From Clostridia bacterium (GTDB lineage Bacteria > Bacillota_A > Clostridia > Oscillospirales > CAG-272): 7,859 bases of DNA. The position numbers were made by a program, and so were the translations under genes. Each line of letters begins with the position of its first letter. Position 1 is the stretch's first letter. Below are positions 1-7,855 of this stretch, in pieces. The notes under the pieces are model-generated. The model was not told where the DNA came from and did no database searches. It saw only the letters and a program-made list of their open reading frames with translations. The stretch spans positions 1-7,859 of the forward strand of contig JAGBGV010000356.1 in assembly GCA_017935805.1 (NCBI GenBank). The letters run 5' to 3'.

Positions 1-711
1 AACAGCGTCCACCATGTGCTCGAGCACTTTAGGACCTGCGATACCGCCTTCCTTATTGACGTGACCTACGATGATCACCGAAGCACCGTCATTTTTCGCA
101 CGATTTATGAGCATGGCAGAGCATTCGCGCACCTGTGTCACGCTTCCGCTTGTTGAGGTGGATTCGTCGGTGTACATAGTCTGAATGGAGTCAACGATCA
201 TGATGTCAGGCTTTATTCTGTCATACTCTGAGAGAATATCATCAATATTCGTTTCCGTCAGCACATAGAGATATTCAGCGTTCACTCCGAGGCGGTCCGC
301 GCGCATCTTAAGCTGACCTTTCGATTCCTCGCCGGATACATACAGCACCTTGCAGGAGTCACCGATCTGTCCGCAAAGCTGCATCAGCAAGGTGGACTTG
401 CCGATACCGGGCTCACCTGCCAACAGGATGACAGACCCCTTAACAAGACCGCCGCCGAGCACGCGATCAAATTCATTGATACCTGTACTGTGGCGGAGAT
501 ATTCGGGAAGCTCAAACTCTCCGAACTTTACTGCGTGCTCCCGTTCTCCTCTTGCGCGAGTGGGAGACTTGCCGCCGGAGGTCTTTTGCGGTGCGGTATA
601 TGTTTCCTCTGTGAATGTGTTCCATGCGTTGCACTGAGGACATCTTCCCAGCCATTTTGCACTTTGATAATCACATTCGGAGCAAACGTAAACGGTTTTC
701 GATGATTTCAT
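1..711 (-). CDS. radA: DNA repair protein RadA, 3' end cut by window edge
   Basis: RadA (Sms) is a RecA-like ATPase that drives branch migration of recombination intermediates in the cytoplasm. The first 237 residues are present. An N-terminal C4 zinc finger is visible (C10, C13, C24, C27; CSEC then CPQC). It is followed by a linker and the ATPase core: Walker A GEPGIGKST at residues 99-107, a GEES segment at 127-130 and Walker B IMIVDSIQT at about 170-178. A GHVNKEG segment lies at 216-222, where most family members have GHVTKEG. The reading frame is still open at base 1, inside the conserved region that precedes the RadA-specific KNRFG motif; the rest of the core and the Lon-like C-terminal domain are missing. 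Family length is about 450-460 residues. The start is the only ATG before an upstream in-frame stop and has a weak GAGAG site 7 bases ahead. The gene follows the amidase gene on the same strand but has its own promoter. Identification is very secure. Confidence 0.97.
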   Translation of the reverse strand, partial: MKSSKTVYVCSECDYQSAKWLGRCPQCNAWNTFTEETYTAPQKTSGGKSPTRARGEREHAVKFGEFELPEYLRHSTGINEFDRVLGGGLVKGSVILLAGEPGIGKSTLLMQLCGQIGDSCKVLYVSGEESKGQLKMRADRLGVNAEYLYVLTETNIDDILSEYDRIKPDIMIVDSIQTMYTDESTSTSGSVTQVRECSAMLINRAKNDGASVIIVGHVNKEGGIAGPKVLEHMVDAV

Positions 712-746
712 TATGTAACTCTCATTCTGAATGATTTATTACATTA

Positions 747-775
747 ATTATACCGCGAAAGGTTCTCTCTTGCAA
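747..775 (-). promoter_or_regulatory. Sigma-A-type promoter of radA
   Basis: On the minus strand, -35 TTGCAA (770-775) and a perfect -10 TATAAT (747-752) are separated by exactly 17 bases. Transcription should begin near 740, giving a leader of about 30 nucleotides before the radA ATG at 711. The -35 hexamer lies within a perfect 12-bp palindrome (767-778), reported separately. Element match and spacing are direct observation; activity is inferred. Confidence 0.8.
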
Positions 776-785
776 GAGTTTTCGC
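755..785. repeat. Nested inverted repeat over the radA -35 element
   Basis: Outer arms GCGAAA (755-760) and TTTCGC (780-785) enclose the perfect 12-bp palindrome CTCTTGCAAGAG (767-778). The palindrome contains the radA -35 hexamer, which is where an operator would sit. The outer right arm overlaps the last base of the amidase stop codon. There is no T-run after either orientation, so it does not look like an intrinsic terminator. Function is unknown. Confidence 0.5.
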
Positions 786-1528
786 TATTTTTCTGCCGCA
801 ATCAAGTATTCCGCGCAGGAAGAGAATATCACAGCGGCAAGCCTTGCGCGATATTCGGGAGTAAGCAGGGCGGCGCGCTCATCGGGATTGGAGATAAACC
901 CGCATTCCACAAGTATAGCGGGCATCTCAATTCGCTTCAGAATGTAAATAGAGTCGCCGCTTGCCTTGATTTCGCGAGTGTTGGTGGGATCTGTGTATTT
1001 CTTGGCATATGACTGCACAAGTCGAGCCGCAGTTTCGCTGCCCTGGTTGTTTGGCGAGTAGTACACCTGAAGTCCACGGTATTTTTCCTCGGGAAACTTG
1101 TTCATGTGTATCCCCACGAACAGCTCTGCCTCATTTTCTTCAGCTATGCGAAGACGGTTTTTCAGGTCATATGTTTTCTTCTTGCCGGTGTAATCGGTGA
1201 GATCATCATAATAGTCGTACAGCAGTCTGTCATCCGTTCGTGTCATTCGGGTAGAATAGCCAAAAACCGTACATATATCGTACAGACACTCGGAGACCTG
1301 CAGGTTCAGCTCCTTTTCCATAACTTCCCCTACATTTGCACCTCCGTCCTCGCCCCCGTGCCCCGGGTCAATAACAAGCTGAACGATCGGTTTTTCCGCA
1401 ATGGCAGGGGCAATATCATTGACGGAGAAATCGGTCTCAAGTGCCGCTTTGCCTGTAAGTAATGCTGCTCCGGCAAACAGCAGGGAAAAGATCATGTAAT
1501 TGAGAATAACTCCCTTTGGCTTTTTCAT
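785..1528 (-). CDS. cwlD: N-acetylmuramoyl-L-alanine amidase, CwlD-like (Amidase_3)
   Basis: This is a zinc-dependent amidase that cleaves the MurNAc-L-Ala bond of peptidoglycan outside the membrane. It has 247 residues. A positive start (MKKPKG) and a hydrophobic segment at about 8-28 form a signal anchor or signal peptide. The catalytic domain spans about 49-245. It shows VIDPGHGGEDGG with ligand H57, E73 in EKELNL, H141 in GIHMN and catalytic E208 in LVECGFISNPDE. The single short domain without SH3 or SPOR repeats, the length near 240 and the KNRLRIAEENEAELFVGIHMN segment all resemble CwlD, the spore-cortex amidase that helps form muramic delta-lactam. Whether this organism sporulates cannot be told here, so a vegetative role is possible. 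ATG 1528 was chosen because GGAGGA lies 5 bases upstream. A longer in-frame start at 1606 would put 26 residues in front, of which the first runs into the recG terminator. I saw no convincing promoter of its own. Confidence is high for the family and moderate for CwlD. Confidence 0.9.
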   Translation of the reverse strand: MKKPKGVILNYMIFSLLFAGAALLTGKAALETDFSVNDIAPAIAEKPIVQLVIDPGHGGEDGGANVGEVMEKELNLQVSECLYDICTVFGYSTRMTRTDDRLLYDYYDDLTDYTGKKKTYDLKNRLRIAEENEAELFVGIHMNKFPEEKYRGLQVYYSPNNQGSETAARLVQSYAKKYTDPTNTREIKASGDSIYILKRIEMPAILVECGFISNPDERAALLTPEYRARLAAVIFSSCAEYLIAAEK

Positions 1529-1533
1529 ATAAG

Positions 1534-1539
1534 TCCTCC
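1534..1539 (-). promoter_or_regulatory. Ribosome binding site deciding the amidase start
   Basis: GGAGGA on the minus strand sits 5 bases before ATG 1528, an ideal arrangement. The upstream in-frame ATG codons near 1606 have no comparable site, so translation should begin at 1528 with the signal anchor directly at the N-terminus. Confidence 0.85.
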
Positions 1540-1547
1540 GAATGAGA

Positions 1548-1568
1548 AATATTACATTCAATAATATT
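1548..1568. repeat. AT-rich inverted repeat upstream of the amidase gene
   Basis: Arms AATATTA (1548-1554) and TAATATT (1562-1568) are perfect 7-bp inverted repeats with a 7-base spacer. They lie between the recG terminator and the amidase ribosome binding site, where a promoter or operator would be expected. The minus strand here offers TATTAT and TAATAT as loose -10 candidates, but none has a -35 at proper spacing. The low sequence complexity means chance cannot be excluded. Confidence 0.35.
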
Positions 1569-1589
1569 CGGCAAGACTTGCGGAAATAC

Positions 1590-1613
1590 AAAAACCCCCA
1601 CATCATGTGAGGG
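1590..1613 (-). terminator. Rho-independent terminator after recG
   Basis: On the minus strand, CCCTCACA and TGTGGGGG pair over 8 bp (one G-T) around a TGA loop and are followed at once by TTTTT. The stem begins 7 bases after the recG stop codon. It should end most recG transcripts, so the amidase gene depends on read-through or on its own unrecognised promoter. Confidence 0.85.
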
Positions 1614-1620
1614 CTTTGAT

Positions 1621-3786
1621 TCAGTTAAGTGTTTTTTCACTTTTCTTTTCCAGTCGGATGAGCTTTTCACTGATCTTTCTGTTGGCTTCACTCTTGAGAT
1701 GCGGATCATTCTTCAGAGTTCGGTTTGCGTAGAATGATGCTCTCTCGATCAGCGATGTATCGCGGCAGGTGGCGGCAAGCTGAAGGCTCATCTGACCATG
1801 CTGACGGATGGTGCCTCCCTCGCCGAAGAAGTCGCCGGGTCCGCGCATCTGCAGGTCATATTCCGCGATCTCAAATCCGTCCGTTGTGCTCTTTATGGCG
1901 CGGAGTCTGTCCATTGCCGACGGGTCCTTTGTGTCAGAGACCAAGATGAAGTATGACTTTGCCTCTCCTCTGCCCACACGTCCGCGAAGCTGATGTAGCT
2001 GTGACAGACCGAATCGCTCGGCATTCTCAACTATCATCAGAGTGGCATTAGGCACGTTCACGCCTACCTCAATAACTGTAGTTGATACAAGAACGTCCAC
2101 ATTTCCTGCGGCAAACTCGTTCATCACTCGCTCTTTTTCTGCAGATTTCAGCTTTCCGTGGACGAATCCTACATTAAGCTCGGGAAGCTCATCAGCAAGA
2201 TAATCCGCGTGTGCTGTTGCGGCTTTAAGGGGAACTGACGTGTCAATAGTTACATCAACATCAAACAGTTCGAATGTTGCGGCGTTTTCGATGTCCTCTT
2301 GCTTCTTTTCCGATTCCTCAACTGCAGGGCAGACAACATAAGTCTGATGCCCCTCATCCGCTTGCTTTTTTATAAATCCGTTTAGTCGCTCACGGTAGCC
2401 TTCGTTTACGATAAACGTATCTATTTTCTGACGTCCTGCGGGGAGCTCATCGATTCTGGATACATCAATGCTTCCGTATGCGGCGAGAGTCAGTGTGCGA
2501 GGAATAGGTGTTGCGCTCATAACAAGTGAGTGAACGTTTTTCGCTTTGTCGAAGAGAGCCGCCCGCTGATTTACACCAAAACGGTGCTGCTCGTCAATTA
2601 TTGCAAGTCCGAAGTCATCTATCTCTACTCCGTCGGAGATGAGTGCGTGTGTTCCAATGACGATGTCAATGCGCTCGTGTCCGCTGTTTGCGATTCCACG
2701 CAGTATTCTGTCTCGCTCACGCTTTGGAGTTGATCCTGTGAGGCAGGCACAGCTGATACCGAGTTTCCCAAAGATGGCGGAAAAGCTGTCATAGTGCTGC
2801 ATCGCAAGTATTTCTGTGGGAACCATTAACGCAACACGGTAGCCGTTCCTTACAGCCGCATATGCCGCTGCCTCAGCTACTGCTGTTTTACCGCTTCCTA
2901 CGTCTCCCGTTAGAATTCGGTTCATGAGCCGATCTCCGCTCATATCCCCGATGATTTCATCTACGGAACGTCTTTGCGCACCTGTCATTTTGAAGGGAAG
3001 TGCGGATAAGAATTCATTTATATCTGTGTCAATTATCTTTGCGGTATTGGGCTTCTGAACCACTGCACGGCCAAGCGCCATCGAAAGGAACATGAGATAC
3101 AGCTCATCAAACACAAGCCTGCGCTTTGCCGATTCAAGAGCAGAAAGACTCTCGGGACGGTGAATGCAGCTTACTGTATAGCCGTAGGTGGGCAGACGAA
3201 GCTCCTCAAGGGCGTCGGTTGGCATATACTCGGCAAGCTCCCGACTGCACAGCCGCAATGCTTCACCTGTTATGGACCCCATGAACTTTTGATTCAGTCC
3301 GGCGGTGAGAGGATATACCGGAACTATATCGGGAAGCGGAATACCGTCTTCATACTTTTCCATGATGGGGCTGTTTATCTGCATCCGCTTGTTTTCTGCG
3401 GTAAATCGACCGAAGAATCTGAAGGTCATGCCTGTGTGAACGGAGTCACGGAGATACTGCTGATTGAACCAGGTGATCTCAACCGAGCCTGTTTCGTCAA
3501 AAGCACGCACCTTCATCAGCACCATACCGCGGCGGATCATGTTGACCTTCGGCTCTGAGGAGATGGTGAGTATACATGAAAACGGACCTTTCTCACCGTC
3601 GATCAGTCGCTCACGAATTTCACGGAGAGTCAAGGTGTCTCCGCGATTCTGATAACCTCGGGGATAGCAGGCGAGAAGATCTCCGACAGTCTCAATTCCC
3701 ATTTTTGAGAGAGCTTTTTTTCTTGCTTCTCCTATCCCTTTGAGGCAGGAAACGTCCCGCTCGAGTACGCTTGCTTTTTCGCTCAC
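1621..3786 (-). CDS. recG: ATP-dependent DNA helicase RecG
   Basis: RecG is a cytoplasmic superfamily 2 helicase that remodels stalled replication forks and Holliday junctions. The 721-residue product has the N-terminal wedge (OB-fold) domain in roughly the first 200 residues, starting with a helix-hairpin-like segment (LKGIGEARKKAL). The helicase motifs follow in order: GDVGSGKT (294-301), VPTEIL (322-327), DEQHRFG (398-404), MSATPIPRT (423-431), VHGK (542-545), STTVIEVGVNVP (568-579) and QLRGRVGRG (599-607). The RecG-specific translocation motif AEYDLQMRGPGDFFG ends near 655. Length exceeds the usual 680-695, mainly from about 23 extra residues near 495-530. GTG 3786 is chosen as start because the near-perfect GGAGGTGAT lies 8 bases upstream; the GTG at 3795 is part of that Shine-Dalgarno sequence and cannot be the start. 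The gene has its own promoter and is followed by a terminator, so it is probably mostly monocistronic. Confidence 0.98.
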   Translation of the reverse strand: MSEKASVLERDVSCLKGIGEARKKALSKMGIETVGDLLACYPRGYQNRGDTLTLREIRERLIDGEKGPFSCILTISSEPKVNMIRRGMVLMKVRAFDETGSVEITWFNQQYLRDSVHTGMTFRFFGRFTAENKRMQINSPIMEKYEDGIPLPDIVPVYPLTAGLNQKFMGSITGEALRLCSRELAEYMPTDALEELRLPTYGYTVSCIHRPESLSALESAKRRLVFDELYLMFLSMALGRAVVQKPNTAKIIDTDINEFLSALPFKMTGAQRRSVDEIIGDMSGDRLMNRILTGDVGSGKTAVAEAAAYAAVRNGYRVALMVPTEILAMQHYDSFSAIFGKLGISCACLTGSTPKRERDRILRGIANSGHERIDIVIGTHALISDGVEIDDFGLAIIDEQHRFGVNQRAALFDKAKNVHSLVMSATPIPRTLTLAAYGSIDVSRIDELPAGRQKIDTFIVNEGYRERLNGFIKKQADEGHQTYVVCPAVEESEKKQEDIENAATFELFDVDVTIDTSVPLKAATAHADYLADELPELNVGFVHGKLKSAEKERVMNEFAAGNVDVLVSTTVIEVGVNVPNATLMIVENAERFGLSQLHQLRGRVGRGEAKSYFILVSDTKDPSAMDRLRAIKSTTDGFEIAEYDLQMRGPGDFFGEGGTIRQHGQMSLQLAATCRDTSLIERASFYANRTLKNDPHLKSEANRKISEKLIRLEKKSEKTLN

Positions 3787-3790
3787 CTGT

Positions 3791-3799
3791 ATCACCTCC
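3791..3799 (-). promoter_or_regulatory. Strong ribosome binding site deciding the recG start
   Basis: GGAGGTGAT on the minus strand matches the 16S rRNA 3' end over nine bases. With GTG at 3786 the spacing from GGAGG is 8 bases. The other in-frame GTG (3793-3795) is embedded in this element, so the three N-terminal residues it would add are not translated. Confidence 0.88.
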
Positions 3800-3908: not shown

Positions 3909-3950
3909 ATGAACAAAAGAATGATAGCGGAGATGAATACGAAAAAATGA
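3909..3950 (+). other. Possible 13-codon upstream ORF overlapping the ppk2 start
   Basis: ATG at 3909 opens a short frame (MNKRMIAEMNTKK, stop TGA 3948-3950) whose stop overlaps the ppk2 ATG at 3947 as ATGA, the classical arrangement for translational coupling. Its own ribosome binding site is poor (GGGA 5 bases ahead). Because ppk2 itself has only a distant GGAG, 14 bases away, coupling would explain how ppk2 is translated. The ORF is very short and could be chance. Confidence 0.25.
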
Positions 3951-4648
3951 TAGAGGAAGTAATAGAGATTGCGTCTTGCGAGACAGACTACAAAACTCGC
4001 ATTAAGGAGCTGCAGAAGGAGATGGAGAAAGCGGCGGAGAAGCTGAAATCTGCTGAAGCACCGCTTATTGTTGTGTTTGAGGGCTTGGATGCGTCGGGGA
4101 AGAGTGGGTGTATTCGGCGGCTGACAAGGGAACTGGACACAAAGCAGTACCGTGTAATTCCTATTTCTGCGCCGACCGATGAAGAAAAACGGTATCACTA
4201 CCTCCACCGATTCTGGAAAAACTTGCCGATGAGAGGGAATATTGCATTTTTTGACAGAAGCTGGTACGGCAGAGTGCTTGTGGAGCGGGTGGAGGGCTTT
4301 TGTTCGAATGCAGAGTGGCAGAGAGCGTACCGTGAGATAAATGAATTTGAAAAGCTGCTTGCCGATGACGGTACACTCATCATAAAATTCTGGCTTGAGG
4401 TCAGTGAGGATGAGCAGCTGAGGAGGTTCCGCGCGAGGATGGAAAACCCGGAAAAAGCTCATAAGATCACAGATGAGGACTGGCGAAACAGATCTCGGAG
4501 GGAGGAATATGAGACTGCGAGGGATGACATGCTCAGACGGACAGACACGCCTTATGCTCCGTGGAAAGTAATACCTGCCAACGACAAAAAACTTGCGAGA
4601 ATCGCGGTGGCTGAAGAAATAATTTATTATGTTAATTTGCAAAAATAG
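3947..4648 (+). CDS. Polyphosphate kinase 2 family nucleotide phosphotransferase
   Basis: PPK2 enzymes move phosphate between inorganic polyphosphate and nucleotides (NDP to NTP or NMP to NDP, by class) in the cytoplasm. The 233-residue product is a single PPK2 domain. It shows the lead-in helix YKTRIKELQKEMEKA (15-29), Walker A GLDASGKSG at 46-54 where most members have GxDAAGKGG, Walker B IAFFDRSWYGR at 99-109, KFWLEVS at 147-153, the Arg-rich lid region 159-186 (RRFRARMENPEKAHK, DEDWRNRSRR) and the ending YAPWKVIPANDKKLARI at 203-219. Class and substrate cannot be assigned by eye. ATG 3947 is the only start that keeps the N-terminal helix, though its GGAG is 14 bases away. Codons such as CGG, AGG and GGG seem commoner than in aroF, suggesting lower expression or a different history. 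No terminator separates it from the aro promoter, so some transcripts may run on into the aro leader. Confidence 0.93.
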   Translation: MIEEVIEIASCETDYKTRIKELQKEMEKAAEKLKSAEAPLIVVFEGLDASGKSGCIRRLTRELDTKQYRVIPISAPTDEEKRYHYLHRFWKNLPMRGNIAFFDRSWYGRVLVERVEGFCSNAEWQRAYREINEFEKLLADDGTLIIKFWLEVSEDEQLRRFRARMENPEKAHKITDEDWRNRSRREEYETARDDMLRRTDTPYAPWKVIPANDKKLARIAVAEEIIYYVNLQK

Positions 4649-4651
4649 GTA

Positions 4652-4680
4652 TTGACAAGCTAAAAATGCTGTGCTATAAT
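4652..4680 (+). promoter_or_regulatory. Perfect consensus sigma-A promoter of the aro operon
   Basis: TTGACA (4652-4657), 17 bases, TATAAT (4675-4680): both hexamers and the spacing match the consensus exactly. Transcription should start near 4687, giving a leader of about 236 nucleotides before aroF. The -35 begins 3 bases after the ppk2 stop codon. A promoter this strong fits an operon whose output is limited downstream by attenuation rather than by initiation. Confidence 0.93.
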
Positions 4681-4710
4681 ATTTGCAAGTTTTATGATAG
4701 GGATATAGAT

Positions 4711-4773
4711 ATGAGAAACTTCGTAGGCTTCGCAAACAGCTTTTATTATTACTCTTACTTTTTTACACTGTAA
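4711..4773 (+). CDS. Phe/Tyr-rich leader peptide of the aro operon attenuator
   Basis: A 20-codon ORF, MRNFVGFANSFYYYSYFFTL, begins 24 nucleotides after the predicted transcription start and ends in TAA (4771-4773). AGGGA (4699-4703) lies 7 bases before the ATG, a usable ribosome binding site. Five Phe (TTC, TTC, TTT, TTT, TTT) and four Tyr (TAT, TAT, TAC, TAC) make up 9 of 20 codons, and 7 of the 8 residues at 11-18 are Phe or Tyr; there is no Trp. It ends upstream of a terminator and a DAHP synthase/prephenate dehydrogenase operon. It therefore has the form of a control peptide like those of the enterobacterial pheA, trp and his leaders: its translation senses charged tRNA-Phe and tRNA-Tyr, and the peptide itself probably has no function. 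This ORF is easily missed because of its length. Coding is inferred from composition, ribosome binding site, position and the surrounding RNA structure. Confidence 0.88.
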   Translation: MRNFVGFANSFYYYSYFFTL

Positions 4774-4791
4774 AATGTAAGAGTGTTTGTG
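4731..4791 (+). promoter_or_regulatory. Attenuator protector hairpin (1:2) overlapping the control codons
   Basis: Three stacked helices can form: CGCAAAC (4731-4737) with GTTTGTG (4785-4791, one G-U); ACTCTTAC (4751-4758) with GTAAGAGT (4777-4784); and TTTTAC (4761-4766) with GTAAAA (4770-4775). That is 21 bp in total. The left strand is the leader ORF around its Phe/Tyr codons, so a ribosome stalled there would prevent the structure. The right strand shares ten bases (4782-4791) with the antiterminator. Pairings are direct observation; the regulatory role is inferred. Confidence 0.75.
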
Positions 4792-4850
4792 CTGGCCATT
4801 TGGTTTTTATATCATAAGATATATAAGCGGGATTCCTCAGTATAGGCACT
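4782..4850 (+). promoter_or_regulatory. Attenuator antiterminator hairpin (2:3)
   Basis: Bases 4782-4795 (AGTGTTTGTGCTGG) can pair with 4837-4850 (TCAGTATAGGCACT) over 14 contiguous bp, five of them G-U. Inside it, after an internal loop, 4803-4806 pair with 4825-4828 and TATATC (4808-4813) pairs with GATATA (4818-4823) around an ATAA loop. This long hairpin uses or encloses the whole 5' arm of the terminator (4825-4841), so the two structures exclude each other. The many G-U pairs make it weaker than the terminator, as expected for a structure that forms only when the ribosome stalls upstream. Confidence 0.68.
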
Positions 4851-4872
4851 GGGCGATCCCGTTTTCCGTTTT
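4825..4872 (+). terminator. Attenuator intrinsic terminator (3:4) before aroF
   Basis: CGGGAT (4828-4833) pairs with ATCCCG (4856-4861). The stem continues with a T-G pair, one C-C mismatch, C-G and T-G pairs, then CAGT (4838-4841) with ACTG (4848-4851) around loop ATAGGC. It is followed by TTTTCCGTTTTG (4862-4873). It sits after the leader peptide stop and 50 bases before aroF with no other gene between, so it must act as a conditional stop for the operon. It could also limit read-through from ppk2. Confidence 0.85.
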
Positions 4873-4922
4873 GTAAACTAAATAGATAATAATTTTCTAA
4901 CATAAAGGAAAGAGGCAAAAAA

Positions 4923-5924
4923 ATGATTGCAGTACTCAAAAGTTCAACAACACAACAGCAGCTTGACAATTTCTGTGAATGGATACGCGCTCAGGGCGTT
5001 GACGCACACATTTATACAGGCGAATTCCAGACAGTTGTAGGACTTATCGGAGACGTTACAAAGGTTGACGCTGATATGCTTTCCGGTCTTGATATCGTTG
5101 AGTCCGTAAAGAGAATTTCCGACCCCTTCAAGAGCGCAAACCGTAAGTTCCATCCCGATGATTCTGTAATTGACATCTCCGGCAAAACATCTGTGGGCGG
5201 CAATATCTTTGCAGTTATCGCAGGTCCTTGCTCCATTGAATCCGAGGAGCAGATACTTGAAGTTGCAAGAGCAGTAAAAGCGGCGGGAGCAACAATGCTT
5301 CGCGGCGGTGCATTCAAGCCCAGAACTTCTCCTTACGATTTCCAGGGACTTCGTGCTGACGGCATCGAGCTTCTTCTTGAAGCAAAGAAGGAAACAGGAC
5401 TTCCTATCGTAACAGAGATCATGAACGCGGCTCACCTGCCTCTATTTGAAGATGTTGACGTTATTCAGGTTGGCGCAAGAAATATGCAGAACTTCGAGCT
5501 TCTCAAGGAGCTCGGCAAAACAAACAAGCCTATTCTCTTAAAGCGCGGTCTCGCAAACACACTCAAGGAATTCCTCATGAGTGCTGAATACATCATGGCA
5601 GGCGGCAACGAAAACGTTATCCTTTGCGAACGCGGCGTTCGTACATTCGAAACATACACAAGAAACACTCTTGACCTTTCCGCTGTACCCATGCTTCAGG
5701 AGCTGTCACATCTTCCCATTATTGTTGACCCCAGCCACGCAACAGGTCTTTCACGTCTTGTTAAGCCTATGGCGCTTGGTGCTGCTGCAGTTGGTGCAGA
5801 CGGTCTCATGATCGAAGTACATAATAATCCCCAGAAGGCTCTGTGCGACGGCCCCCAGTCTCTCACTCCCGACCAGTTCGAGGATGTAATGAAGGCAGTA
5901 AACCGCGTGCTCACAGCACTTTAA
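4923..5924 (+). CDS. aroF: 3-deoxy-7-phosphoheptulonate (DAHP) synthase, type I beta
   Basis: This enzyme condenses phosphoenolpyruvate and erythrose 4-phosphate to DAHP, the first step of the shikimate pathway. It has 333 residues. Residues 1 to about 70 form a ferredoxin-like N-terminal domain (MIAVLKSSTTQQQLDNF...), which in the Thermotoga maritima enzyme gives Tyr/Phe feedback inhibition. The catalytic barrel follows, with the signature GGAFKPRTSPYDFQG at 128-142. Expected metal ligands are C103 in AGPCSIES, H272 in DPSHATG, E298 in MIEVH and D309 in CDG. There is no C-terminal chorismate mutase. GAGG (4912-4915) lies 7 bases before the ATG. The gene uses many C-ending codons (AAC, TTC, ATC) and looks highly expressed. 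It is the first structural gene after the Phe/Tyr attenuator and is followed by tyrA after 30 bases. In other naming schemes it is called aroA or aroG. Confidence 0.97.
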   Translation: MIAVLKSSTTQQQLDNFCEWIRAQGVDAHIYTGEFQTVVGLIGDVTKVDADMLSGLDIVESVKRISDPFKSANRKFHPDDSVIDISGKTSVGGNIFAVIAGPCSIESEEQILEVARAVKAAGATMLRGGAFKPRTSPYDFQGLRADGIELLLEAKKETGLPIVTEIMNAAHLPLFEDVDVIQVGARNMQNFELLKELGKTNKPILLKRGLANTLKEFLMSAEYIMAGGNENVILCERGVRTFETYTRNTLDLSAVPMLQELSHLPIIVDPSHATGLSRLVKPMALGAAAVGADGLMIEVHNNPQKALCDGPQSLTPDQFEDVMKAVNRVLTAL

Positions 5925-5954: not shown

Positions 5955-6785
5955 ATGACAGTCGGAATAATCGGCCTTGGACTCATCGGCGGCTCCATGG
6001 CTAAAGCATATCACAATGCAGGACATACAGTTCTCGGCCTTGACACACACAAGGTGACACAGGGCTGGGCTGAGTTGTCCGGAGTTATTAACGGAAATCT
6101 CGAAAAAAGCGAGAGCATTGGCAAGTGCGATCTTATCCTTATCGCTATCTGTCCTGAAGCTGCTGTGCAGTGGTTAAAGGATAATTCCGCATACATCAGC
6201 AAGGATACTCTTGTAATTGACCTGTGCGGTAACAAGCGCATCGTTTGCGAAACAGGCTTTGCCGTGGCAGCAAAATACGGATACACATTTGCCGGAGGTC
6301 ATCCCATGGCGGGCACTCATCTTGCTGGAATCAAGAACTCCCGTGAGGATCTTTTCCGCGATCAGCCTATGGTTATCGTACCTCCGAAGCATGATGACAT
6401 TGCCTTGTATGACCGTATAAAGCAGGCACTTGCTCCTGCAGGCTTTGGAAAGATCACTTACACTACTGCAGAGAAGCATGATGAGATGATCGCATTCACC
6501 TCACAGCTTGCCCACGTTGTGTCAAACGCATACATCAAGAGTCCTCGTGCAACTGCTCACAGCGGTATGTCAGCGGGAAGCTACAAGGATATGACCCGTG
6601 TTGCACTGCTGAACGAAAATATGTGGGCAGAGCTATTCATGGAAAACAGCGACAATCTGGCTAATGAGATCAATTTGCTCATTGATGAGCTGACAAAATA
6701 CAGAGACGCTCTTGTAGACGGAGACAGAGAAAGAATGACTGAACTTCTCCGGGAGGGCAGAATTGCAAAAGAGATCGCAGACTAA
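5955..6785 (+). CDS. tyrA: Prephenate dehydrogenase, monofunctional
   Basis: TyrA oxidatively decarboxylates prephenate to 4-hydroxyphenylpyruvate (or arogenate to tyrosine in some variants), using NAD(P), in the cytoplasm. The 276-residue protein opens with a Rossmann fold, GIIGLGLIGGS at 4-14, with an acidic D30 at the end of strand 2 that suggests preference for NAD. The all-helical C-terminal domain follows. Family-conserved features are GGHPMAGTHLAGI (114-126, with H116), HDEMIAFTSQLAH (175-187, with H187) and KDMTRVA (211-217, with R215). At 276 residues it has neither the ACT domain of Bacillus TyrA (about 370) nor a chorismate mutase fusion, so it may lack direct Tyr inhibition. AGAGGT (5941-5946) precedes the ATG by 8 bases. 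It lies between aroF and aroB in the same operon and should be under the same Phe/Tyr attenuator. Prephenate versus arogenate preference cannot be settled from sequence. Confidence 0.95.
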   Translation: MTVGIIGLGLIGGSMAKAYHNAGHTVLGLDTHKVTQGWAELSGVINGNLEKSESIGKCDLILIAICPEAAVQWLKDNSAYISKDTLVIDLCGNKRIVCETGFAVAAKYGYTFAGGHPMAGTHLAGIKNSREDLFRDQPMVIVPPKHDDIALYDRIKQALAPAGFGKITYTTAEKHDEMIAFTSQLAHVVSNAYIKSPRATAHSGMSAGSYKDMTRVALLNENMWAELFMENSDNLANEINLLIDELTKYRDALVDGDRERMTELLREGRIAKEIAD

Positions 6786-6796: not shown

Positions 6797-6802
6797 ATGA
6801 CC

Positions 6803-7855
6803 ATGAAGATCGACGCAGGAACTTACAACATAATAATCGAGCGTGGAGCTCTGTCAAAGGTGGGCGAATACTCGGCTCAGGTAATGAAGCCTTGCCGCTG
6901 TGTTATCGTGTCTGACGATAATGTACATCCCTTATATGCGGATGTTGTGCGTGACAGCCTTGTCGAGGCAGGATTTGATGTGGCAGCCGACTTTGTATTC
7001 CCTCACGGTGAAGAGAGCAAGAATATGTGCACACTTGAAGCATTGCTCGATCATCTTTGCGGTGAAGGAATAACTCGTACGGATGCTGTATTTGCTCTTG
7101 GCGGAGGCGTAACGGGAGATATGGCAGGCTTTGCGGCGGCGGTTTATCTTCGCGGAATGAAGTTTGTGCAGATTCCTACCTCTCTTTTGGCTTGTGTGGA
7201 TTCATCCGTGGGAGGCAAGACGGCGGTTGACTTGGCGTCCGGTAAGAATCTCGTTGGTGCGTTCCATATGCCATCTCTTGTTGTGTGCGACCCTGATACG
7301 CTGAAGACACTACCGCAAGAGTACTTCTCTGACGGTATGGCGGAGGTCATCAAAATGGGATTCATCGGTGATCCCAAACTGCTTGATCTTCTCGACGGCG
7401 ATATTTCAGATAAAATTGATACAGTTATTGCAACCTGTGCGGGAGACAAGGTGAATATCGTAGCAGGTGATGAGTTTGACAAGGGTGTTCGTCAGAAGCT
7501 TAATCTCGGTCACACAGTAGGTCACGCAATGGAGGCGCTCTCAAAATATAAGACCCATCACGGCATGGCTGTTGCGGCGGGTATGCATATTATTACCCGT
7601 GCTGCAGTTGCTCGAGGCATTTGTCCTGCAGAGGTACTGACACGACTCGACGCTCTGCTCGAAAAATACGGACTTGATCCATATATTTTCAAGGCATATA
7701 CTGCAGAGGATATGTACGCAGTCACTCTTCATGACAAAAAGTTGCGTGGAGACAGGATAACCTTGGTCGTTCCCGAGGATATGGGCAGACGCGAGCTTTA
7801 TGAGTATCCTGTAACTTATCTGCTTTCAATAATAAAGGATTGTACTGCAGAATGA
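6803..7855 (+). CDS. aroB: 3-dehydroquinate synthase
   Basis: AroB converts DAHP to 3-dehydroquinate, the second shikimate step, using NAD and a divalent metal (Zn or Co) in the cytoplasm. The 350 residues match the usual 350-365. The NAD-binding half carries VFALGGGVTGDMAGF (96-110), then QIPTSLLACVDSSVGGKTAVD (123-143) and KNLVGAFHMP (148-157). Expected metal ligands are E181 in GMAEVIKMG, H237 in LNLGHTVGH and H253 in THHGMAVA; the usual HGE/HGD is HGM here. HDKKLRGDRITLVVPEDMG (310-328) is the conserved end of the active site. The gene begins 17 bases after the tyrA stop. Together with aroF it supplies the first two steps of the common aromatic pathway. The nearest upstream promoter I see is the attenuated one at 4652. 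Confidence 0.96.
   Translation: MKIDAGTYNIIIERGALSKVGEYSAQVMKPCRCVIVSDDNVHPLYADVVRDSLVEAGFDVAADFVFPHGEESKNMCTLEALLDHLCGEGITRTDAVFALGGGVTGDMAGFAAAVYLRGMKFVQIPTSLLACVDSSVGGKTAVDLASGKNLVGAFHMPSLVVCDPDTLKTLPQEYFSDGMAEVIKMGFIGDPKLLDLLDGDISDKIDTVIATCAGDKVNIVAGDEFDKGVRQKLNLGHTVGHAMEALSKYKTHHGMAVAAGMHIITRAAVARGICPAEVLTRLDALLEKYGLDPYIFKAYTAEDMYAVTLHDKKLRGDRITLVVPEDMGRRELYEYPVTYLLSIIKDCTAE

Follow-up and report, generated by a model that had tools for sequence, protein, structure and literature searches.

The window, by which we mean the whole 7,859-nucleotide stretch of DNA analysed here, ends in three genes in the order aroF-tyrA-aroB (Table 1). The AroF protein scored 487 bits against NF006421 (cut-off 335) and the AroB protein 340 bits against TIGR01357 (cut-off 305); the TyrA protein reached 148 bits with its best prephenate dehydrogenase model, under the cut-off of 295. 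Upstream of these genes, a PPK2-like polyphosphate kinase gene occupies 3947-4648 and stops 3 nt short of the leader promoter's -35 box, and the minus strand of 1-3795 carries genes that we take, by eye, to be radA, an N-acetylmuramoyl-L-alanine amidase gene and recG.

A 20-codon ORF in front of aroF had been picked out in a first-pass annotation of this DNA as a Phe/Tyr leader peptide. Its coordinates and composition proved exact: MRNFVGFANSFYYYSYFFTL contains five Phe (residues 4, 7, 11, 17 and 18) and four Tyr (residues 12, 13, 14 and 16), and residues 11-18 read FYYYSYFF. That such a run lies beyond normal composition was likewise borne out, as no short ORF reached seven Phe/Tyr in eight residues in any of 2000 dinucleotide-preserving shuffles of the leader region (4687-4922), and at least six in eight were found in a single one of the 2000. 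The leader ribosome binding site had been called good; the AGGGA present is moderate, not strong. An alternative, longer in-frame ORF could begin at an ATG at 4666, but because this codon falls within the promoter, ahead of the likely start of the transcript, which promoter spacing would put near 4687, we consider 4711 the credible leader start.

Table 1. Features of the aroF leader region and operon, in window coordinates.
Feature	Position	Strand	Details and basis
Sigma-70 promoter TTGACA-17-TATAAT, TG before the -10 box	4652..4680	+	12/12 consensus
Leader ribosome binding site AGGGA, 7 nt 5' of ATG	4699..4703	+	moderate match only, from sequence
Leader ORF, MRNFVGFANSFYYYSYFFTL	4711..4773	+	ATG, 20 codons, TAA
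1:2 hairpin (anti-antiterminator)	4726..4797	+	fold; equivalent inner stem covaries in 41-row alignment
Control codons F Y Y Y S Y F F, residues 11-18	4741..4764	+	inner part within region 1
Region 2, AGTGTTTGTGCTG	4782..4794	+	fold, duplex
3:4 intrinsic terminator hairpin and U-rich tail TTTTCCGTTTT	4825..4872	+	fold, terminator scan
Region 3, CAGTATAGGCACT, in terminator 5' arm and loop	4838..4850	+	pairs with region 2
Purine-rich stretch holding likely aroF ribosome binding site	4904..4915	+	read from sequence
aroF, 3-deoxy-7-phosphoheptulonate (DAHP) synthase	4923..5924	+	NF006421 and TIGR01361 above cut-off
tyrA, prephenate dehydrogenase	5955..6785	+	best models below cut-off
aroB, 3-dehydroquinate synthase	6797..7855	+	TIGR01357 above cut-off

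The whole leader folded at -57.5 kcal/mol, far more stable than its shuffles (z-score -5.6). In the 1:2 hairpin, 4726-4729 pairs with 4794-4797, 4731-4737 with 4785-4791, 4751-4758 with 4777-4784 and 4761-4766 with 4770-4775, so that region 2 has its upstream partners (4726-4737 and 4751-4758) in the leader ORF, around its control codons. Region 2 can also pair with region 3 at 13 of 13 positions, G-U included, and the whole-region 2:3 duplex reached -22.2 kcal/mol; its shuffles averaged -12.3, and none of 200 equalled it. The terminator hairpin itself (4825-4864, -21.0 kcal/mol) has stems 4825-4834/4855-4864 and 4836-4841/4848-4853; a simple terminator pattern scan of the window did not list the terminator because its stem is interrupted and its U tract broken. 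The locus carries sequence features expected of a ribosome-mediated transcription attenuator: a short ORF, furnished with start signals of its own, that lies between the promoter and aroF (its translation being predicted), a run of codons for an amino acid made by the operon, an intrinsic terminator before the first gene, though not of textbook form, and a conserved 2:3 antiterminator exclusive with both 1:2 and 3:4. The perfect promoter and the terminator/antiterminator pair, which the first-pass annotation did not mention, make the case for attenuation.

We consider it very probable that 4711-4773 encodes the leader of a ribosome-mediated transcription attenuator through which the cell senses how much charged tRNA-Phe and tRNA-Tyr it has. 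RNA polymerase would start near 4687 and a ribosome would translate the leader. If Phe or Tyr were short, with either shortage presumably sufficient alone, the ribosome would stall on codons 11-14, covering region 1 and leaving region 2 free; free region 2 would pair with region 3, no terminator would form, and aroF-tyrA-aroB would be transcribed. If both were plentiful, the ribosome would reach the last control codons and the stop and cover region 2, regions 3 and 4 would pair, and transcription would end near 4870. Without translation, the 1:2 hairpin would form and the terminator would win by default. Events in this order are those of classical attenuation.

The footprint model applied to this scheme keeps the RNA from -18 to +12 of the A-site codon single-stranded, an assumed footprint size, on a transcript that ends at region 3. 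In the window, a ribosome at codons 11-14 gave about 18 region 2:3 pairs, a ribosome anywhere from codon 16 to the stop about 7, and no ribosome 7.6. Any stall before codon 15 left region 2 free in the model; as stalls on earlier codons would also free it, specificity would come from the codons, not from geometry. A ribosome on control codons 16-18 would mask region 2 instead of freeing it.

The first-pass annotation had proposed a check in relatives, namely whether a Phe/Tyr-rich ORF is kept upstream of their aroF genes. We ran it on loci from species-level genomes found by an AroF protein search, taking the best 80 among the matches listed; with the window added and L003 dropped (57 nt upstream), 80 upstream regions were compared. 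At least five Phe/Tyr in eight residues were present in a short ORF within 300 nt upstream of aroF in 66 of these 80 (best 80 listed, window included). The same criterion was reached by 3.0% of 4000 shuffles and by 3 of the 80 regions when reverse-complemented, which excludes chance and indicates wide conservation; the check thus did not refute the leader proposal. Sporobacter termitidis DSM 10068 (L010) and Angelakisella massiliensis (L027) both have such aroF leaders. No Phe/Tyr leader (at least five in eight) was seen in the upstream stretch searched at 14 of the 80 loci (best 80 listed): L011, L012, L015, L020, L023, L031, L033, L036, L040, L047, L054, L061, L071 and L079.

The other parts of the device were found with the leaders. 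A promoter-like site lay within 110 nt 5' of the leader in 51 of the 66 loci (window included; mean of 11.2 in base shuffles), and the scan found a terminator at 64 of the 66. At 50 of these loci the control window lay within an ORF opened by an ATG that has a Shine-Dalgarno core of 4 nt or longer, leaving 16 without one at this threshold. Each locus's own 2:3 duplex averaged -18.8 kcal/mol, against -13.2 kcal/mol with the regions 2 of other loci; at 63 of 64 loci it surpassed the median mismatched duplex, but at only 10 of the 64 did it surpass every mismatched one, and it reached strict shuffle support (at most 2 of 200 as good, the 1% level) in only 33 of 64. In the footprint model, the 64 loci averaged 10.6 region 2:3 pairs with the ribosome on the control codons, 3.9 with it at the stop and 5.4 with none, and the control-codon stall exceeded the ribosome-free state in 56 of 64 loci and the ribosome at the stop in 60 of 64.

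Alignment of 41 of these 64 loci, after divergent loci were excluded by eye, allowed the 1:2 inner stem to be followed column by column. In this stem 82.2% of cells were paired, as against 46-57% in slid controls and 78.4% in column shuffles, none of 500 of which was as high. Both sides had changed in 9 of 11 pairs, and in 6 sequences a U-A pair had become A-U at the codon position that converts Phe to Tyr. RNAalifold on the whole 41-row alignment (A1) returned a weak consensus of 5 pairs only, because region 3 and the outer stem are poorly aligned; in its place we used the named inner stem, the per-locus duplex test and the footprint model. Together, the anatomy of the locus and its relatives strongly support the ribosome-mediated attenuation that had been suggested for it.

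A covariance model, R1, was built from the 41 aroF attenuator rows, and hits were taken at E up to 0.01. It matched 51 of 391 genomes of one class and 77 of 295 genomes of one order (some genomes being in both draws), low estimates of prevalence given that R1 misses part of the leaders outside its training set. The arrangement had been thought unusual; within this clade it is not. In total, the 686 genome draws gave 139 distinct hits, with about 7 expected by chance at E 0.01; seven of the hits are loci already in the AroF set, and L304 and L098 duplicate L052 and L024. The immediate downstream gene was called by tblastn or, for proteins that gave no match, by inspection of the sequence, and 126 of 139 hits stand before amino acid biosynthesis or tyrosyl-tRNA synthetase genes: aroF (102), pheA (8), tyrA (4), ilvB (4), trpB-like (4), tyrS (2), leuA (1) and ilvE (1). 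The rest precede paaK (1), an operon encoding an XRE-cupin protein and an AMP-ligase (1) or genes given no assignment (11). With one protein of each kind run against NCBIfam, ilvB and leuA passed the cut-off, and prephenate dehydratase, PaaK and TrpX fell short of it; the trpB, tyrS, ilvE and ligase operon identities come from reading of the sequences. All 21 non-aroF leaders checked, a set that left out L108, L118, L135, L140 and L144, had a terminator by scan and a possible antiterminator, the weak cases being L322 (duplex -8.5 kcal/mol) and L300 (terminator -11.9). The leaderless loci L079 and L012 gave weak R1 matches located away from aroF.

Across this family, the leader codons follow operon content. 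Phe/Tyr content in the R1 aroF hits is expected from the training of the model, whereas the Phe-only, Tyr-rich, Trp-bearing and Ile/Val/Leu leaders are not; some of the non-aroF leaders were chosen by eye among Shine-Dalgarno-led ORFs. In the 8-residue window, the Tyr share of Phe plus Tyr was 0.54 in the 66 aroF leaders, 0.53 in 51 aroF R1 hits, 0 in 7 pheA leaders (34 Phe, 0 Tyr) and 0.83 in 4 tyrA leaders. Rank tests against the pooled aroF leaders gave 9e-6 for pheA and 0.005 for tyrA, rough values as related genomes are not independent. At the 7 Phe-only pheA loci, the 2.7-3.1 kb of downstream sequence compared contained no match to aroF, tyrA or aroB, and the 3 tyrA loci without an aroB match in the 0.6-1.3 kb fetched downstream had Tyr shares of 0.8, 1.0 and 0.83. 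Where aroB follows, both residues appear in the leader: at L332 (tyrA then aroB; Tyr share 0.67) and at L108, the eighth pheA hit, whose Phe and Tyr codons led us to read the codons by operon content. The ilvB, ilvE and leuA hits had Ile/Val/Leu leaders such as MSYLFVSLIVFLIGIIVIIDNAF..., MLGMATFFGIISTILISAIIIADVIIIN... and MKSQFSAQLNLLNLALLLQG; the trpB-like hits had Trp in their leaders (Trp-Trp in one), and the tyrS hits Tyr-Tyr or Tyr-Tyr-Tyr. A separate scan yielded two further pheA leaders, the Phe-only L158 and L156, with 5 Phe and 1 Tyr and no aro neighbour within about 1.2 kb. A Phe-only rule for every pheA leader thus fails, at L156 and at the pheA-aroB locus L108.

We lean towards a reading in which one RNA scaffold, with a single terminator/antiterminator design, makes up a codon-programmable attenuator family across Clostridia, operating alongside T-boxes in the same genome. 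Its targets would be aroF (Phe and Tyr), pheA (Phe), tyrA and tyrS (Tyr), trpB-like genes (Trp) and ilvB, ilvE and leuA (Ile/Val/Leu), and perhaps operons of the types at L127, L145 and L316.

Four loci are recorded here for their downstream genes. At L127, the leader MFLSVLFVFICLYFYFFAFLFCKSKSVLCCG, with terminator and antiterminator, precedes a phenylacetate-CoA ligase-like (PaaK-like) gene, 3' of which a 148-residue ORF looks ACT-like by eye; the leader may mark arylacetate use for Phe/Tyr synthesis. At L145 (G011:C97), a further R1 hit (E 2.9e-4), the leader MKAGKFAVFAYFYRYYFTVCE stands before a TrpX-like ABC binding protein gene, which suggests that the operon encodes a Phe/Tyr importer. 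The Ile-rich leader MLTDFVKVNSVIIIISIIEISNSAVLRCAE at L316 (G457:C9) precedes genes named by eye as an XRE-cupin regulator and an AMP-dependent ligase and may mark branched-acyl assimilation to Ile. Another Ile-rich leader, MNNIYFVIISIILISIIIIRDTAVLRCAKIKG at L339 (G176:C164), is an R1 hit before what appears by eye to be a spore germination operon and does not fit an amino acid operon.

The same attenuator could in principle sense only Phe, or only Tyr, with the other codons as passengers, and we regard this as unlikely. The leader of the Corynebacterium glutamicum aroF operon, AroR, was reportedly described by Neshat in 2014. According to the available portions of two papers, this Phe-Tyr-Phe leader before aroF answers to Phe and not to Tyr (PMC11802643, PMC4046766), a precedent for Phe-only sensing. 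The control run of the window opens with a Phe codon and continues with three Tyr codons (12-14). Moreover, both residues occur in the 8-residue window of 63 of the 66 aroF leaders, 55 having at least two of each, while Tyr is absent from all 7 pheA hits without aro neighbours and the tyrA leaders are mostly Tyr. The combination of both residues at aroF, Phe alone at pheA and abundant Tyr at tyrA suggests that both codons are selected. Judged by its codon content, the aroF attenuator would sense Tyr, Phe or both.

It is very improbable that RNA structure or protein binding is what maintains the U-rich stretch, with the peptide a by-product. In favour of this, the control codons are indeed among the pairing partners of region 2 and show a third-base bias (TTT 160, TTC 32 in the control windows); the corresponding TTY:TTR ratio of 192:0 partly reflects selection, as the 66 leaders were picked on Phe/Tyr content. 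Nevertheless, the Phe/Tyr frame is the frame of the Shine-Dalgarno-led ATG ORF in 50 of 50 loci, the Phe-to-Tyr changes are compensated in region 2, and the leader amino acid shifts with the pathway. Equally slight is the chance that the peptide itself acts, whether through nascent-chain arrest that senses free Phe/Tyr or in trans as a small protein. Such self-acting peptides exist, TnaC being an example and peTrpL, by the excerpt available on it, another. Unlike what is generally known of arrest peptides, however, the leaders here share little outside their control residues (by eye), and the RNA architecture accounts for the conservation.

That a T-box or known riboswitch controls aroF can practically be dismissed: although T-box matches occurred in 40 of 41 leader-bearing genomes searched (over cut-off in 38), an Rfam scan of the window at E up to 1 matched no family, T-box RF00230 and the leader families included, 28 other R1-hit loci held no T-box or leader family at E up to 0.1, and the 14 leaderless aroF loci had no T-box at gathering score. 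The only Rfam matches at the 28 loci were an SRP RNA in L322 and an sRNA over the L314 attenuator, the latter at 27.3 bits against a gathering score of 39 and taken as chance. As RF00230 is found elsewhere in such genomes, the T-box search works. The idea that leader genomes lack T-boxes was rejected on the same counts. In the first-pass annotation the leader had been set apart from the T-box or TRAP control of Firmicutes aromatic genes. A TRAP leader carries an array of about 11 (G/U)AG repeats. With regard to T-boxes, the contrast holds for the aroF leader, which matches none, and does not hold for the genomes, nearly all of which carry them, in some cases at trpE, leuA or ilvB.

To control for specificity, 132 upstream regions from the 41 genomes were compared (hisG 30, trpE 12, leuA-like 30, ilvB-like 30, pheA 30), with gene starts set by a crude ORF rule, distant homologues within the leuA and ilvB sets, and many of the pheA loci lying 4-8 kb downstream of an aroF attenuator. 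At least five Phe/Tyr in eight occurred at 5 of the 132 non-aroF loci (L156, L158, L188, L262 and L266). No short ORF upstream of the 30 hisG loci had more than 2 His in 8, and none upstream of the 12 trpE loci more than 2 Trp in 8. Seven of 12 loci scanned with Rfam had T-boxes: trpE L176 and L182, leuA L190 and L193, and ilvB L253, L259 and L266. The notion that such leaders precede every amino acid operon was therefore rejected, on the hisG and trpE results and the T-boxes at some loci. Short Ile/Val/Leu-rich ORFs (6-7 of 8) were seen before ilvB-like genes at L249, L252, L256, L257, L262 and L263, so that the ilvB-like genes of related genomes show two devices, leader ORFs and the T-boxes of L253, L259 and L266. 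Leaders and T-boxes at different operons of such genomes indicate that both devices share the work.

The classical attenuators are pheL/pheA and trpL of E. coli, and we know of no Phe plus Tyr sensor in the classical set. The system described here resembles them in having a leader peptide and a mutually exclusive terminator and antiterminator, and differs in that none of the Rfam leader families (Phe, Trp, His, Leu, Thr) matches it. It is like AroR, by the accessible description of that leader, in having Phe and Tyr codons in a leader peptide ahead of the gene for DAHP synthase and in its ribosome-mediated attenuation, which is predicted here and has transcript data for AroR; AroR, as described there, belongs to an actinobacterium and has Phe-Tyr-Phe only, whereas here seven of eight codons are Phe or Tyr and the host is a member of the Clostridia. 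A motif before aroF in Acholeplasma, uORFC-13-1, has 24 representatives from Acholeplasma and environmental sequences (PMC8632094, in part). Its available text describes a predicted promoter, ribosome binding site, start codon, Phe-coding U run and adjacent terminator, as here; in contrast, that text gives at least one Phe and includes neither Tyr nor the 1:2/2:3/3:4 scheme. In the available part of a survey of five genomes, Clostridium novyi among them, two candidate uORFs before shikimate metabolism genes have Phe and Tyr as notable residues (PMC6429828); compared by that description, they may overlap the present family. Partial sources also report leader-peptide attenuators in Firmicutes for his operons of Bacilli, Peptostreptococcaceae and Erysipelotrichales (PMC9413887, PMC2965389) and for ilv-leu of S. 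aureus (PMC5794164); as there described, the same mechanism is proposed in place of T-boxes, for other amino acids and in other clades. The locus had been called possibly undescribed; by these partly available sources the kind is in print, both as Firmicutes his and ilv-leu attenuators and as leaders with Phe, or with Phe and Tyr, that precede aroF or genes of shikimate metabolism. Among the literature matches listed, with subscription journals mostly outside their scope, there was no Phe/Tyr aroF attenuator in Oscillospirales-type Clostridia and no codon-swapped attenuator family.

Leader-peptide attenuation is usually taught with enterobacterial examples; these findings put it in a large group of Clostridia, many of them from gut or rumen, that also use T-boxes, and make it possible to ask of a single genome why a leader serves some of its amino acid operons and a T-box others. 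A shared scaffold with swapped codons amounts to a natural experiment on amino acid specificity. Leader codons also give sequence-based predictions of operon function, such as a Phe/Tyr role for the PaaK-type ligase operon and for the TrpX-like importer. If the scaffold reading is true, the codon mix of each leader would write out the amino acids that its operon serves.
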